From the IMG/VR virus record IMGVR_UViG_3300037508_002095, positions 1 to 29,240 of that record: DNA of 29,240 nucleotides; one strand, written 5' to 3'. Position numbers and translations under genes: made by a program. Origin of the DNA: a virus. Within the stretch, counting starts at the first letter, position 1. Each line of letters begins with the position of its first letter. Under the pieces are notes generated by a model. That model had not been told where the DNA came from. It ran no database searches and was given only the letters and a program-made list of their open reading frames with translations. Below, one piece after another: positions 14,810 through 26,842 of this stretch.

Positions 14810-15232
14810 ATGACCGACGTTACACACGAAATAGCCCACGACAAAGCGCCCGATCCACCGATGATGATCGTACCGGCCAACCCTCGGGCCAATGTCTCGA
14901 TCCTGCGTGAGGGGCGGCATATTGCCGGGCCCACGCGTCCAGTGTTCTCCTTTGACTACGATGCGATGCAGTTTTCCATGAACGTACGCAGCTATGTGCA
15001 CGCAGGCGTGGAAGTCATCATGAATGAGGCACAAATCGCTGAGGTGCTTGATTTTTTGAATAACCTTGATGTAAGCGAAGCGCGCAGCCGACGCTATGCG
15101 CAAAGCCGACAGCTCATCGACTATCTGGCCAGTACCGACTGGTATGTGATCCGCGCCCTTGAGTGCGGCGTGCCGGTGCCCCAGGACGTGAGCGAGGCCC
15201 GTGCAAGGGCGCGTGAGGCGATCCAATGGTAA
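14810..15232 (+). CDS. Tail-fibre assembly-type protein
   Basis: A 140-residue protein in two parts. The N-terminal part is polar with a short beta-rich domain (ANVSILREGRHIAG, FSFDYDAMQFSMNVRSY). The C-terminal half carries the motif YLASTDWYVIRALECGVPVPQD followed by SEARARAREA, which is the tail of many small phage tail-fibre assembly/chaperone proteins. Its ATG lacks a good ribosome site. Its stop overlaps the halogenase start (ATGGTAA), so the two are coupled. It may deliver or hold the fibre for modification; that is inference. Confidence 0.55.
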   Translation: MTDVTHEIAHDKAPDPPMMIVPANPRANVSILREGRHIAGPTRPVFSFDYDAMQFSMNVRSYVHAGVEVIMNEAQIAEVLDFLNNLDVSEARSRRYAQSRQLIDYLASTDWYVIRALECGVPVPQDVSEARARAREAIQW

Positions 15233-16683
15233 GGCGCCATGTGCTCATTGCAGGCGGTGGTACGGCCGGTTGGTCGACTGCGGCGATCCTCTCAGCCAAC
15301 CCCGCACTGCATGTCACGGTGCTCGACCCAAGCACGATCCCGAGCATTGGCGTGGGTGAAAGTACGCTTCCCCACTTACACCTGGCCCATAAGGCGATGG
15401 CACTGCCAAGCCTGCAAACCGAGGCCTGGGCGCGCGCGGTCGATGCCACGGTGAAACTGGGGATTGCGTTTGAGGATTTCTATGAAAAGGGCGCACGCTG
15501 GTTACACCCCTTTTTAGATGCTGCCGATATCGATCGGATCCGATTGGGGGCGGCCCTTCGCGCAGGGGCGCTTGCGCAGGCGCCCGATCAGTGGGCCTTT
15601 GCTGCCGAGCACACCTGGGCAGGGGCCAAGCTTGAAGGGGGCTTTATCGAGCGAAGCACCTGGTTTGAGCGCTACCGGGTGGCTGCGCATGGCGGAGGCG
15701 GTGCCTTTCACATCGATGCCTTGAAGTACGCCGCGCTACTTAAACAAGAGGTGCTTGCGCGCGAGAACGTTCAGGTGCTTGATGCAACGATTGCTCAGGT
15801 GCACTGCGATGATCGTGGGGCGGTTTCAAGCATTCTTATCGATGCGGGTCATGCGCTTTGCGCTGATCTTTACATCGATTGCACAGGCTTTGCAGGCGTA
15901 CTGGCTCAAGCGGTGCAATCACCATGGGTCTCGGTGGCTGATCGCCTCCTTGTCGATCAGGCCTGGGTGGTGCAACTCCCCTTCGTGGACCCCGCCAGAC
16001 AGCGCATGAATCTGACCCACTGCCAGGGCTTGCCTGAGGGTTGGGTGTTTCATATTCCGCTTCAAAGCCGCATCGGCACGGGCTATATCCATGCAAGCCG
16101 CTATGTGGATACGGAGAAAGCGCAAGCCGATTTCATCTCGCACCTCACCCGACGCTGGGGCTATGCGCCCGAAGCGATCGAGCCGCGCCTTGTGCGCTTC
16201 AAGACGGGCTTTCGGCCCAAGCTGTGGCATCACAATGTGGTGGCCATCGGTTTGAGTGGCTTTTTTTGCGAGCCCATCGAAAGCACGGCCATAGCGTTGG
16301 GTCATTACGCTGCGATGCTTTTAGCGCAATACCTTCATGCAGCCCATGTGGCGCCCGATGCCTTGCGGGATCGCTATAACGCGGAGATGCGTGAGCAACA
16401 CGACGATGTGCTCGATTTTGTGCAAAGCCACTATCTATTAAGTGCTCGCACGGACAGTGCCTTTTGGCGTGACTATGGCCGCATGAGCAGGCCCGAAGCA
16501 CTTGAGCGCGTTATCAAAGCCTTTGAAGGTAACGATGAGGCGCTGATTGAGGATGCCGCCTTTCGTGACCTGATGCAGCGACGCTTTGGGATGTTCCATG
16601 GCTTCTCCTACGTCGCACTGCTGATGGGTCATGGGTTAAGACCAGGCTTGCCGTCTGCAGCCAAGCATCTTGCACTGGTATGA
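15226..16683 (+). CDS. Flavin-dependent tryptophan halogenase
   Basis: A 485-residue member of the PrnA/RebH-type family, which uses reduced FAD, oxygen and halide to halogenate tryptophan or related aromatic groups. Visible features are FAD-binding GGGTAGW (10-16), GVGESTLP (42-49), a Lys77 in DATVKLG that lines up with the catalytic Lys79 of PrnA, and FFCEPIES with Glu352 matching PrnA Glu346. The usual WxWxIP signature reads WVFHIP (273-278) and FxxPxxSxG reads with Ala at the end, so substrate or mechanism may differ. GAGG precedes the ATG. No flavin reductase is visible, so a host enzyme would supply FADH2. Codon/base use is GC-richer than the fibres (39 of 60 in 15241-15300, against 31 of 60 in 19141-19200). 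Viral halogenases are known from cyanophages. Confidence 0.9.
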   Translation: MVRRHVLIAGGGTAGWSTAAILSANPALHVTVLDPSTIPSIGVGESTLPHLHLAHKAMALPSLQTEAWARAVDATVKLGIAFEDFYEKGARWLHPFLDAADIDRIRLGAALRAGALAQAPDQWAFAAEHTWAGAKLEGGFIERSTWFERYRVAAHGGGGAFHIDALKYAALLKQEVLARENVQVLDATIAQVHCDDRGAVSSILIDAGHALCADLYIDCTGFAGVLAQAVQSPWVSVADRLLVDQAWVVQLPFVDPARQRMNLTHCQGLPEGWVFHIPLQSRIGTGYIHASRYVDTEKAQADFISHLTRRWGYAPEAIEPRLVRFKTGFRPKLWHHNVVAIGLSGFFCEPIESTAIALGHYAAMLLAQYLHAAHVAPDALRDRYNAEMREQHDDVLDFVQSHYLLSARTDSAFWRDYGRMSRPEALERVIKAFEGNDEALIEDAAFRDLMQRRFGMFHGFSYVALLMGHGLRPGLPSAAKHLALV

Positions 16684-20646: not shown

Positions 20647-21137
20647 GCGATGCTATGAATGACGTAACGACCAAAGAAAGATCGCAGCAACCCCAAAGTG
20701 TTGTTTTTTATGATGATCAGGGATGTATTCGCTTTGCCTTTGTGGGCACAAGTGCGCAGTGTGAGGATCAACCAACGCCTGCGGGCCTTCTAAGACTTGA
20801 CTGCGATCGGCCCATCGTTGCCTTTTCGTCCTATGTGCAAGACGGTGAGGTGATCGATAAAGGCGATGCGCCAGGTCCCATGATGCGGTTTGATTATGGG
20901 CAAAAGGCTTGGGTGCAGGATGAAGCGCTTGCTTGGTGGATGGTGCGCCAGGTGCGCGATGAAAAGCTTAAAAGCTCAGACTGGACCGATACGATGTCTG
21001 CCATCGACCGATTAGGGGTTGAGCGATTCAACGCCTGGCAGCAATACAGGCAAGCACTTCGTGATGTACCGATGCAGGGTGATCCTTATGCGGTAGTTTG
21101 GCCAGTGCAACCAGGTGGCGAGGCGTTATCGACCTAG
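20643..21137 (+). CDS. Phage tail assembly chaperone
   Basis: A 164-residue protein. The C-terminal half reads LKSSDWTDTMSAIDRLGVERFNAWQQYRQALRDVP..GDPYAVVWPVQP, the pattern of the phage tail assembly chaperone family (PF16778 type). These proteins help fold or attach fibres. The start overlaps the fibre stop (ATGA) and has AGGAG before it. Its partner is the fibre just upstream. Confidence 0.75.
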   Translation: MSDAMNDVTTKERSQQPQSVVFYDDQGCIRFAFVGTSAQCEDQPTPAGLLRLDCDRPIVAFSSYVQDGEVIDKGDAPGPMMRFDYGQKAWVQDEALAWWMVRQVRDEKLKSSDWTDTMSAIDRLGVERFNAWQQYRQALRDVPMQGDPYAVVWPVQPGGEALST

Positions 21138-21290
21138 CGAGCGTGCGATGTCATCCCAAATCACGATGATAAGCACTACGAATTCGAATCCAAGATAGAT
21201 CAAAAAGTTGCGCCTGCGGCGTCTCTTTTTGGCTTCGCGAATGAGCTTGGCATCATTTGGCGTTTGGTTAGAAGGGTTGGAATCGTTCAA
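21126..21290 (-). CDS. Small basic single-pass membrane protein
   Basis: A 54-residue reading frame on the reverse strand with a TTG start. It has a polar N-terminus (LNDSNPSNQTPNDAK), a strongly basic stretch KKRRRRR, then a hydrophobic segment FLIYLGFEFVVLIIVIW and a short charged end. The positive-inside rule predicts the N-terminus in the cytoplasm. The TTG is 18 bases past the stop of the DUF1272 gene, suggesting one operon. It overlaps the end of the chaperone gene by 12 bases, tail to tail. No family recognised. No ATG/GTG start and no clear ribosome site lower confidence. Confidence 0.5.
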   Translation of the reverse strand: MNDSNPSNQTPNDAKLIREAKKRRRRRNFLIYLGFEFVVLIIVIWDDIARSLGR

Positions 21291-21308
21291 GAGTTAACCC
21301 ATTGAGGG

Positions 21309-21557
21309 CTAGGCAATTTTTTGGCAACCCTGCTGTTTAAGCTTCCTATCGATCGATGCGGGATATTTAGCAAGCTTATCTGCGGGTCTGCGAGGCCTCG
21401 CTACAAGTTCACCGCCACAATTAGGACAGCGGTGTTGCAACACCGCTTGAGCGCAATCAGCGCAAAATGTGCATTCAAAGGAACAGATCCGGGCATCGGT
21501 GGTTTCAGGTGGCAGATCTTTATCGCAACACTCACAATTGGGCCGAAGCTGGAGCAT
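21309..21557 (-). CDS. DUF1272 zinc-ribbon-type protein
   Basis: An 82-residue Cys-rich protein, MLQLRPNCECCDKDLPP, ICSFECTFCADCA and HRCPNCGGELV: nine Cys in paired C-x-C/CxxC patterns, as in the DUF1272 family, so it should bind zinc. Function of the family is unknown. AGGGGA precedes the ATG. It is widespread in proteobacterial chromosomes and unusual in phage virion operons, so it is likely cargo. Confidence 0.85.
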   Translation of the reverse strand: MLQLRPNCECCDKDLPPETTDARICSFECTFCADCAQAVLQHRCPNCGGELVARPRRPADKLAKYPASIDRKLKQQGCQKIA

Positions 21558-21976
21558 TCATTTATCCCCTGATAGTGGTAACGTTGCGGGAGCTTATCAC
21601 CGGCAGGCGGTTTGGCTTGATTCGAGTGATCGTCTGATTGCCCTTGGAGCGTTTGCTCATGAGGTAGGGCGCCGGTGTGAGACTAAGCCCGACGCTCACC
21701 CAGACTGATGGCATTCGATTAAACGTTATCGAGTCGATGACAAATCGCCGTAAGCATACTTGTACTGTGTGAAATGCCGGTGCGGATGTTGTAGACACCC
21801 CTCTCCATGTACTTGCCGGTTCACTAGCCTGGCAGATGTGAGCGTGCGCTGGTTTTGCAGGACCGAGTGGGGGCCTTGAAGCGTTCTGCATCTCCTGTAG
21901 GCCGTGACGGAAAGCACGGAATCTGCCTTACTTTCCAAGGCGCAGCGGGCGTAAGAGTGCTCGCTGCGCGCCCCTT
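21558..21976. other. Non-coding stretch with structured-RNA element copy A
   Basis: No convincing gene. It contains the first copy of the duplicated element (21901-21969), preceded by CTGGCAGATG (21829-21838), also present near the second copy. A 109-codon open frame on the reverse strand (21562-21891) crosses the region but its composition does not look like a protein. Confidence 0.5.
21901..21969 (+). ncRNA. Candidate pseudoknot-plus-hairpin RNA, copy A
   Basis: A 37-base block (21901-21937), identical to one at 22583-22619, can form stem CCGTG/CACGG with loop ACGGAAAG; the GGAAAG of that loop can pair with CTTTCC at 21931-21936, giving an H-type pseudoknot. Directly after it is a second hairpin, GCGCAGCG (21940-21947) with CGCTGCGC (21962-21969), loop 14 bases. 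A G-U pair at the base of the loop in both copies suggests the plus strand is the RNA. It starts 8 bases past the (reverse) stop of the following gene. Function unknown. Confidence 0.5.
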
Positions 21977-22279
21977 CTAGGTATTAAAGAATTGCCAGCC
22001 AAGTGCATTTACTGTTGCTTCGAGTGAATCAAGGACTACACGCTCTGCGGCATCACCGAATGCTAAATAAGGCCCAAGCTGATGATCGTATGGGGTAACT
22101 ATCAGGCAGCTTGCCTGGAAGCGAGCCGAGACTAAGGGTTTTGGAGGCGTTTCAAGGTTGATCTGAGTCAGCTTGATCTTGGATTTGAACTTGAAAAGCC
22201 GCCGTTGAACAATTCTTCGTAATTGTTGTCCATCAGCTTTCTCTGACAAATCGGTATTGAACTGAATGATGATTTGCAT
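21977..22279 (-). CDS. Hypothetical 100-residue protein, paralogue A
   Basis: A 100-residue protein (MQIIIQFNTDLSEKADGQQ...) with a basic helix (QLRRIVQRRLFKFKSK) and beta-type strands. It aligns along its length, at low identity, with the protein at 22662-22964: both begin MQI, have QLR..VQ..L..F and similar later strands, and both have exactly 100 codons. I chose the ATG at 22279 because it gives this matching start; an in-frame start at 22315 would add 12 residues. Pattern loosely recalls ribosome hibernation (HPF/RaiA) proteins, but that is not shown. Confidence 0.5.
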   Translation of the reverse strand: MQIIIQFNTDLSEKADGQQLRRIVQRRLFKFKSKIKLTQINLETPPKPLVSARFQASCLIVTPYDHQLGPYLAFGDAAERVVLDSLEATVNALGWQFFNT

Positions 22280-22582
22280 GAAAAGCGCTGTGCATTTGAC
22301 TTTGACATTGACCAACCGCGTTGGTCTTGATGTGTTTTAAGAGGAAGTTGCCAATTACCATCCCAGCAACTGTGCAGTGCTTGGGAGAAGCAAAAGCTTT
22401 TATCCCGATCGAGACGTCGCGCTGAGGAAAGACCGTATTTTTTGCATGGACAGTACCAAACCGAGCGTACCTGAGACACACTTCGAGGGCACCAAACGTA
22501 ACGAGTTGGCGGTACGCTGGCAGATGCTAATCCTGACCACTTCGTGCTTGCTGGTGCATCGTCTTAAGCAGGCACCTCCTTT
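22280..22582. other. Spacer between the two paralogous units
   Basis: I see no gene here. It contains CTGGCAGATG (22517-22526), shared with the other unit, and CACCTCCTT (on plus), which reads AAGGAGGTG on the reverse strand. A plus-strand frame of 70 codons (22377-22589) has no gene-like features. Confidence 0.4.
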
Positions 22583-22651
22583 GCCGTGACGGAAAGCACG
22601 GAATCTGCCTTACTTTCCACCGCACCGAGGGTCTTCGTAGTCTCTCGGTGC
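22583..22651 (+). ncRNA. Candidate pseudoknot-plus-hairpin RNA, copy B
   Basis: Second copy of the element. The first 37 bases (22583-22619) are identical to copy A. The second hairpin is GCACCGAG (22622-22629) with CTCGGTGC (22644-22651), loop 14 bases. Compared with copy A, stem positions 3, 5 and 7 differ and each is compensated in the partner strand (G-C to A-U, A-U to C-G, C-G to A-U). This is direct covariation support for a base-paired structure. Confidence 0.55.
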
Positions 22652-22661
22652 ACCCCACCAC

Positions 22662-22964
22662 CTAGGGCTCTTTGGGCTGGCGCTTAAGGCGCTCTATAAC
22701 ATCACGAAGCGCTTCTTCAAGCGCAAACACAGCACTTGCCCCTTTGCCATGAAAGGTTCCGGTTGCAAAGCCCGAACGTGTCCCGATGCGACAGGTGACC
22801 TCAAAGCTCGCATTGGATGTTGCCGAGGTCGACTTGAAAACAGACACAACAACAAACTGGACCTCGTCTTCAAAGGCGCGAAGTTTTTGTTGCACGACTG
22901 CACGCAGCTGTGAGCCACTTGTCGCACTTGTCAGCGTCGCGGATTGCTCAACAGTAATTTGCAT
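22662..22964 (-). CDS. Hypothetical 100-residue protein, paralogue B
   Basis: A 100-residue protein: MQITVEQSATLTSATSGSQ, QLRAVVQQKLRAFEDEVQF, strands VVVSVFKST and ASFEVTCRIG, then a helix SAVFALEEALRDVIERLKRQ. Distant resemblance in layout to ribosome hibernation factors (HPF/RaiA); no catalytic motif. Paralogue of 21977-22279, with starts 685 bases apart and the RNA-like elements 682 apart, so gene plus element was duplicated as a unit. Stop lies 11 bases from element copy B. Confidence 0.6.
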   Translation of the reverse strand: MQITVEQSATLTSATSGSQLRAVVQQKLRAFEDEVQFVVVSVFKSTSATSNASFEVTCRIGTRSGFATGTFHGKGASAVFALEEALRDVIERLKRQPKEP

Positions 22965-22998
22965 GGTCAGGCCTTAGGTTTAGCACTGCTACCTTACC

Positions 22999-23010
22999 CC
23001 AAGCATGGCA
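22999..23010 (+). promoter_or_regulatory. CCAAGCATGGCA element, copy 4
   Basis: Exact 12-mer ending ten bases before the GNAT start at 23021, the first plus-strand gene after the reverse-strand block. Also close to the reverse-strand gene at 22964, so it could serve either. Confidence 0.45.
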
Positions 23011-23020
23011 ATGTGAGCGA

Positions 23021-25687: not shown

Positions 25688-26842
25688 TTAAGCAGAAAAG
25701 ATGAAGCGAGTACCTGTTGAGGAACGGATCGCACGTGGCCCCAATGCGTTAGCTGCCATCGTGATAAACGTTTCACCGCTACAGTGCATCGGAATCAGAA
25801 AGTCGGCATTAAATTGCTGTAACTCTTCCAGCGTCTGCTTTTGGTACTCGGGTGTGTGCGGGGCTAAGTGAAAACCACCCATGATTGCGTGGATTTTATC
25901 GATCTTTGAGACCTTAATGGCTGTCTTTACAGAGTTGACAATCCCTCGATGTCCGCAAGAGGTCATGATCACTAGGCCTTTACCTTTAACGTGATAGACG
26001 GTGGCTTGCTCATGCTCAAAGTCATCGGGCACATTCATCGCTGTTCGCTTCTTCTCCGATAGCCCCTCTGGCATGCATCCCAGCGCGCCTTGCATACCCG
26101 CTGACATGCGCGTCGGAGAAAGCACACGCTCAAAGGAATCTGCAGCAATGAATCCTGTGGTAAATCCGTGATCAGCTAAAAGCGATGGGCGTTCAGCGAA
26201 CGTGACAACAAGTCCCGCTTGCTTGATAGCTTCACGGTCTAGGGCGCCAAAGCTACCCGGGTTACCTGGAACGTTTAATTCTCGAGAGCAAAAACACTCC
26301 TCACTACCCAGATAGAAGGGAAGATCCTTCTTGAGCTTTCCCTTATTTGCCTCTAAAAAGCCAACCATGCCACCGAAGTGATCGTAGTGGCCGTGGCTAA
26401 GCGCTATGGCATCGAGCTTTGAAGGATCAATGCCAAGAATCAGCATGTTATTGATCAGGGTTTCCGATGTCCATGCGAAATCAATGAGAACTTGTCGACT
26501 CTGACCGCCCGCGGTCGATTCCAAATGCAAGGCAAGGCCCCATTCATTTTGAAGGGCACGCTTCGGAGGCTCATTCGGCTTGACAGTAAAGCCAGCACGT
26601 TGGACTTCAAGGCTTCCAATCTTGAGAGGGCGCTCAAACGCATGGTGATATGAATCGGTTACGACACGAACCGCAAGTCGATCAACTTGGGGAATGGTGT
26701 TACCAAGCGGCTGCGCAGTGGCTACACGCGCACCGAGTAAACCGCCAGCCGCTGCCGCTGCTAACGAAGTTGGTCCAGCTTTAAGCAATTGACGACGACC
26801 ACGATTGGCCAAATAGCCGCCTTGTTCACTCACTCGATCCAC
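25688..26842 (-). CDS. Tat-exported metallo-beta-lactamase-fold hydrolase
   Basis: A 384-residue protein. The N-terminus has the twin-arginine motif GRRQLLKAG (Arg16, Arg17), a hydrophobic stretch, and an ATA cleavage site near residue 43, so it should go to the periplasm folded. The catalytic signature HGHYDH is at residues 150-155, followed by GG; later TSCGHRG, GGFHL and MHCSGE supply further metal ligands, in the style of the COG1237 (MptA-like) dihydropterin MBL group. Substrate unknown. GTG start with GGGAG six bases before it. It runs against the flanking virion genes and is chromosome-like cargo. Confidence 0.8.
   Translation of the reverse strand: MDRVSEQGGYLANRGRRQLLKAGPTSLAAAAAGGLLGARVATAQPLGNTIPQVDRLAVRVVTDSYHHAFERPLKIGSLEVQRAGFTVKPNEPPKRALQNEWGLALHLESTAGGQSRQVLIDFAWTSETLINNMLILGIDPSKLDAIALSHGHYDHFGGMVGFLEANKGKLKKDLPFYLGSEECFCSRELNVPGNPGSFGALDREAIKQAGLVVTFAERPSLLADHGFTTGFIAADSFERVLSPTRMSAGMQGALGCMPEGLSEKKRTAMNVPDDFEHEQATVYHVKGKGLVIMTSCGHRGIVNSVKTAIKVSKIDKIHAIMGGFHLAPHTPEYQKQTLEELQQFNADFLIPMHCSGETFITMAANALGPRAIRSSTGTRFIFSA

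Follow-up and report, generated by a model that had tools for sequence, protein, structure and literature searches.

A duplicated phage element of about 145 bases, of no known family, that may be a new structured RNA working with an RNA-binding protein

What is the nature of a repeated, apparently foldable sequence that stands at the ends of two paralogous reverse-strand genes in a virus? We asked this of positions 1-29,240 of the IMG/VR virus record IMGVR_UViG_3300037508_002095 (the window, meaning the whole stretch analysed). The 29,240-base window encodes a P22-like portal (Pfam), and the closest head proteins to its own are from Erwinia and Burkholderia phages (50% identity). A Polaromonas plasmid carries a gene 72% identical to the window's DUF1272 gene, a sequence similarity that is only a hint as to the host. 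A tryptophan-halogenase-like FAD gene lies in the phage late region (15226-16683, Pfam E 1.5e-97), and a metallo-beta-lactamase-fold gene (25688-26842, minus strand) shares about 52% identity with Caballeronia plasmid-borne sequences. The duplicated element belongs to no known RNA family; it may represent a novel phage RNA acting together with an RNA-binding protein. The features on which this reading is built are as follows.

21829-21974, plus strand: the full structured unit of element copy 1 (E1), from segmentation and a match to covariance model R1 (E 3e-33, E1 itself having gone into R1)
22517-22656, plus strand: the full structured unit of element copy 2 (E2), from a match to R1 (E 6e-30, E2 likewise having gone into R1) and a minimum free energy (MFE) fold equal to the nested model
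21829-21838, plus strand: 5' strand of helix A in CTGGCAGATG, E1, from a shuffle test and MFE folds of all three known copies
22517-22526, plus strand: 5' strand of helix A in CTGGCAGATG, E2, on the same two grounds
21856-21890, plus strand: hairpin H1 of E1, TGCAGGAC/GTTCTGCA, 8 bp, its offset from helix A equal to that in E2
22544-22575, plus strand: hairpin H1 of E2, GTGCTTGCT/AGCAGGCAC, 9 bp, from a shuffle test of a stem at that offset
21901-21937, plus strand: core of E1, comprising the stem CCGTG/CACGG, the 3' strand of helix A, ATCTGCC, and possibly a GGAAAG/CTTTCC pseudoknot; 37/37 identity with E2
22583-22619, plus strand: core of E2; 37/37 identity with E1
21940-21969, plus strand: hairpin H2 of E1, 12 bp, four pairs being changed on both sides over three copies
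22622-22651, plus strand: hairpin H2 of E2, 12 pair positions including one U-U mismatch, from comparison over three copies
21977-22279, minus strand: gene 1, encoding 100 aa from an ATG, with an HPF/RaiA fold as predicted by AF2 and Foldseek, paralogue of gene 2, tail-to-tail with E1
22662-22964, minus strand: gene 2, encoding 100 aa, with an HPF/RaiA fold as predicted by AF2 and VIA, tail-to-tail with E2

The two-copy repeat with 37 identical bases proposed by the sequence-only reading was borne out. Between 21901-21974 and 22583-22656 the copies are 77% identical overall, all differences falling after the first 37 nt, and an 18-nt core stem-loop of this kind is expected to occur by chance only 0.01 times in the window (at most 3 mismatches). 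However, that reading began each copy at the core, some 70 nt downstream of the true start at CTGGCAGATG (21829 and 22517). This sequence stands 72 nt (E1) and 66 nt (E2) before the core, and the GGCAGAT strand within it (21831-21837 and 22519-22525) is complementary to the ATCTGCC of the core. H1 starts seventeen bases after CTGGCAGATG in both copies, and its arms have almost no sequence in common between E1 and E2, with pairing and offset kept. The H1, joint and loop sequences of the two copies show near-random identity, unlike the 37/37 cores. Both copies finish in CCCC, 2-5 nt before the TAG of the minus-strand gene, a conserved junction that agrees with the earlier placement of each copy just past the stop of a reverse-strand paralogue (26% protein identity between genes 1 and 2, E 2e-10).

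Shuffling tests favoured the long-range helix A: none of 5000 shuffled upstream pairs shared a core-complementary 10-mer at a like position, and the same 7-mer complement arose in both copies in 8 of 5000. When copy 2 was shuffled 5000 times, 43 of the shuffles gave a stem of 8 bp or more at the H1 offset. Helix A and H2 occur in the MFE folds of E1, E2 and the third copy, found in a related viral contig (L004, below). For E2 the unbiased MFE fold adds to the nested model one extra pair in the B loop and two in the H2 loop (z -3.8, 0/200 shuffles). E1 by itself folded barely better than its shuffles (z -1.1), and stem B as drawn was absent from the MFE folds of E1 and L004. An H-type pseudoknot of CCGTG/CACGG (stem B) and GGAAAG/CTTTCC (helix C) can form in the arrangement suggested earlier. 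Two other pairings are possible in all three copies, one of the CACGG strand with an upstream CGTGC and one of the G-rich H1 loop with the CCCC tail, the latter too short to claim a second pseudoknot.

Covariation supports hairpins H1 and H2 and is neutral on helices A, B and C; these core helices are invariant in the three copies and therefore gain no support of this kind. In H2, four pairs carry double changes over the three copies. The 8-bp hairpin with three compensated pairs described from sequence corresponds to H2, and the three changes (A-U/G-C, C-G/A-U and A-U/C-G) held, but the stem extends to 10-12 bp with a fourth compensated pair further up, and what had been taken for 14-base loops is mostly stem, folding giving a loop of 6 nt. 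The argument that G-U pairing favours the plus strand also stood: over the three copies, H1 and H2 read on that strand contain 8 G-U and 0 A-C juxtapositions, the 8 not being independent events because E1 and L004 have H1 in common by descent. Fold z-scores for the three copies were -3.8, -1.1 and -3.8 on the plus strand versus -0.4, -1.0 and -0.7 on the minus strand, where folds were near shuffled values. The plus strand is thus favoured as the structured strand, and we are highly confident that the element is a real structured plus-strand element. A protein-coding core was considered and rejected: one frame stays open in each copy, yet E1 and L004 differ by single-base indels, one of them within the core, that break it. 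Promoter-like sites occurred at chance level.

Among 28 related viral contigs the element was found by R1 in only one, L004, as a single copy (14901-15045), bringing the known copies to three in two phages. The sequence-only reading would have fallen had no further homologue with covariation appeared; narrowly, this one did, with a further compensated change. The L004 copy is chimeric, its joint and H1 arms being identical to E1 and its H2 being E2-like (H2a 12/12). Since its left half follows E1 and its right half E2, recombination occurred inside the core; an L004-like arrangement would result from taking one unit out of the window, or a window-like one from inserting a unit into L004. In L004 the element lies between two plus-strand genes, its end about 22 nt short of the GNAT start; it stands directly before a plus-strand gene there only, both window copies preceding minus-strand genes. 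With gene 2 as query, no relative was found in L004 at E 1. The window's closest relative, L003, has the GNAT gene without the element, and a different minus-strand gene, MORN-like by eye, occupies the spot of the window's elements and genes (L003 14920-15492).

Further copies were found neither by exact patterns in IMG/VR and GTDB contigs nor by blastn in phages and plasmids, nor, besides L004, by R1 in the 28 related loci, 18 whole records and the pattern-hit loci; pattern matches other than L004 lacked the surrounding element. These negatives are to be read knowing that, beyond the fetched loci, the search used exact DNA patterns or blastn, which diverged homologues could escape, and that some of the collections may omit records close to the window. 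Two CGTTATCGA direct repeats, at 21124 and 21724 (span 21124-21732), flank the DUF1272 gene (21309-21557, minus strand). Given this gene between repeats and the one-unit difference between L004 and the window, the element region is a site of accessory-gene turnover. L004 is without the DUF1272 gene. Directly upstream of gene 1, a perfect inverted repeat, GACCAAC-CGC-GTTGGTC (22310-22326), is operator-like.

We then considered the proteins encoded beside the element. The AlphaFold model of gene 1 (pLDDT 85.4) had HPF/RaiA as its best Foldseek matches, and that of gene 2 (pLDDT 75.5) aligned with HPF by VIA (Z 12.6, rmsd 2.6, 98 aligned), each model coming from a 2-sequence alignment. Both share a beta-alpha-beta-beta-beta-alpha order, and solved HPF/RaiA/YfiA proteins top their matches. 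Against Pfam S30AE, gene 2 scored below the cut-off (15 bits vs 23.7; E 0.043) and gene 1 gave no match; homologues of gene 2 were found in none of the viral contigs, plasmids or phages searched. Genes 1 and 2 are accordingly described here as having a predicted HPF/RaiA fold, a common fold being no demonstration of ribosome binding. In known cases the HPF/RaiA fold binds rRNA.

Our preferred reading, to which we give a probability of roughly 40%, is that the element is a structured orphan RNA of the phage and makes up a module with the HPF-fold protein, a partnership that we infer. Late transcription of the plus strand, or a promoter that escaped notice, would yield this plus-strand RNA of about 140-146 nt. 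Helix A would enclose H1 and stem B, the B loop could pair with bases that follow helix A to give the putative pseudoknot, and H2 would come next. Element and abutting convergent HPF/RaiA-fold gene would constitute one module, in which the folded core most likely acts as a protein-binding site. The first candidate ligand would be the phage's own HPF-like protein, given that the fold binds rRNA in known cases, and binding might titrate that protein or control the convergent gene. This protein-partner mechanism, taken by itself, is tentative and somewhat doubtful. In favour of such a module, the cores have remained 37/37 identical beside near-random H1, joint and loop sequences, and this although the flanking proteins are only 26% identical; the retention of the element in L004, without a relative of gene 2, weighs against it.

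A more specific version is that the phage HPF-like protein binds a pseudoknotted orphan RNA, or that the RNA imitates rRNA for it, the pair tuning host ribosomes in infection, which we regard as improbable. The core (window 21906-21933) resembles 23S rRNA 2053-2079, around A2058 (GACGGAAAG ... CCTTTACT). For the L004 core, 0 of 36 E. coli genome chunks and 2 of 200 shuffles reached as good a score; for the window core, 5 of 36 chunks did. The comparison was post hoc, made after the likeness was spotted, and the sequence likeness is a weak hint on which nothing here is based.

Several readings could hold simultaneously, namely the module, a DNA-level recombination joint and a cis-acting leader. 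That the element is a joint at which moron cassettes enter and leave, in the manner of an integron attC site, is unlikely, but L004 does resemble a window that has lost one unit by a crossover within the core, and attC sites are known in phages (PMC9892861). As in attC sites and phage CALIN cassettes, a structured site follows each stop in a same-direction array and the folded strand is antisense to the gene. However, the elements have a conserved 37-nt core rather than short R boxes, the four attC R' cores (GTTRRRY) in 3.1 kb all fall outside 21829-21974 and 22517-22656, cassettes usually hold unrelated genes and not paralogues, and ordinary homologous recombination at 37-bp direct repeats accounts for the chimera. 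On unsystematic inspection, no integrase stood out in the window. An outside chance likewise attaches to a cis-acting role in the late plus-strand mRNA, as a leader or between genes, through a riboswitch, translational control or RNA processing; the element would first have served the GNAT-like gene, from which inserted morons would have parted it in the window. The L004 arrangement, with plus-strand genes on both sides and the GNAT start close by, fits this, as do the alternative CACGG/CGTGC pairings in all three copies; the minus-strand genes after both window copies, the GNAT gene without an element in L003 and the failure to match any known riboswitch argue against it.

Position directly after each stop codon would also suit a minus-strand terminator or stabiliser at the 3' end of these genes. 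We give this a poor chance: the site has no U-tract and no terminator call, G-U pairs and fold z favour the plus strand, and a terminator would not need the long-range helix A. It is very improbable that the element is a self-cleaving ribozyme, whether of a class not yet described or a degenerate form of pistol or of the HDV-like ones. In pistol, the P1 loop pairs with the P2-P3 junction and cleavage falls at a GU between opposite strands of P3 and P2 (PMC4604425), and the element likewise has a short stem whose loop can pair to a strand after a third-helix strand; yet its third helix closes upstream (21831-21837, 22519-22525), and pistol's closes downstream, a comparison made by Rfam model and strand order rather than nucleotide by nucleotide against conserved pistol positions. 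HDV-like and theta phage ribozymes, like the element, have a 7-bp helix that closes around a stem and is followed by a long hairpin. Their catalytic C stands at the first position of J4/2 (PMC10879173), but the first base after H2, the P4-like hairpin, is G in E1 and A in E2 and L004. The ribozyme or riboswitch identity floated by the sequence-only reading thus found no backing in strand order, in this base or in Rfam, and a plus-strand gene directly follows the element only in L004.

Returning to the module with the HPF-fold protein, we compared the element with known structured RNAs. Across 21137-23020, no Rfam family matched the elements at gathering threshold or at E 10, including pistol, HDV, twister, riboswitches and raiA-motif RNA; the sole match to E 10 was a chance-level SNORD30 outside the elements. 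ARAGORN called no tRNA or tmRNA in the window, a further difference from the theta ribozymes. GOLLD and ROOL are structured phage RNAs with pseudoknots and unknown function (PMC12286853), a description that the element shares, but they are several times longer and often near tRNAs. The raiA-motif RNA is structured and pseudoknotted and often lies near RaiA/HPF family genes (PMC11706538). Because that RNA has a similar neighbourhood in bacteria, the small phage RNA and its 100-aa protein would, if the module is real, offer a tractable test of whether such proteins bind neighbouring RNAs, and would add an unnamed structured phage RNA and a rare link to a ribosome-hibernation-type protein. In both systems a structured RNA with known or putative pseudoknots sits beside known or predicted RaiA/HPF-type genes; raiA-motif RNA/ModT (RF03072) is bacterial (Bacillota, Actinomycetota) and about 205 nt long, whereas the element is from phage, convergent with its gene and of other sequence. 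The raiA-motif RNA is the nearest published, thematic parallel to the element and no sequence relative of it.
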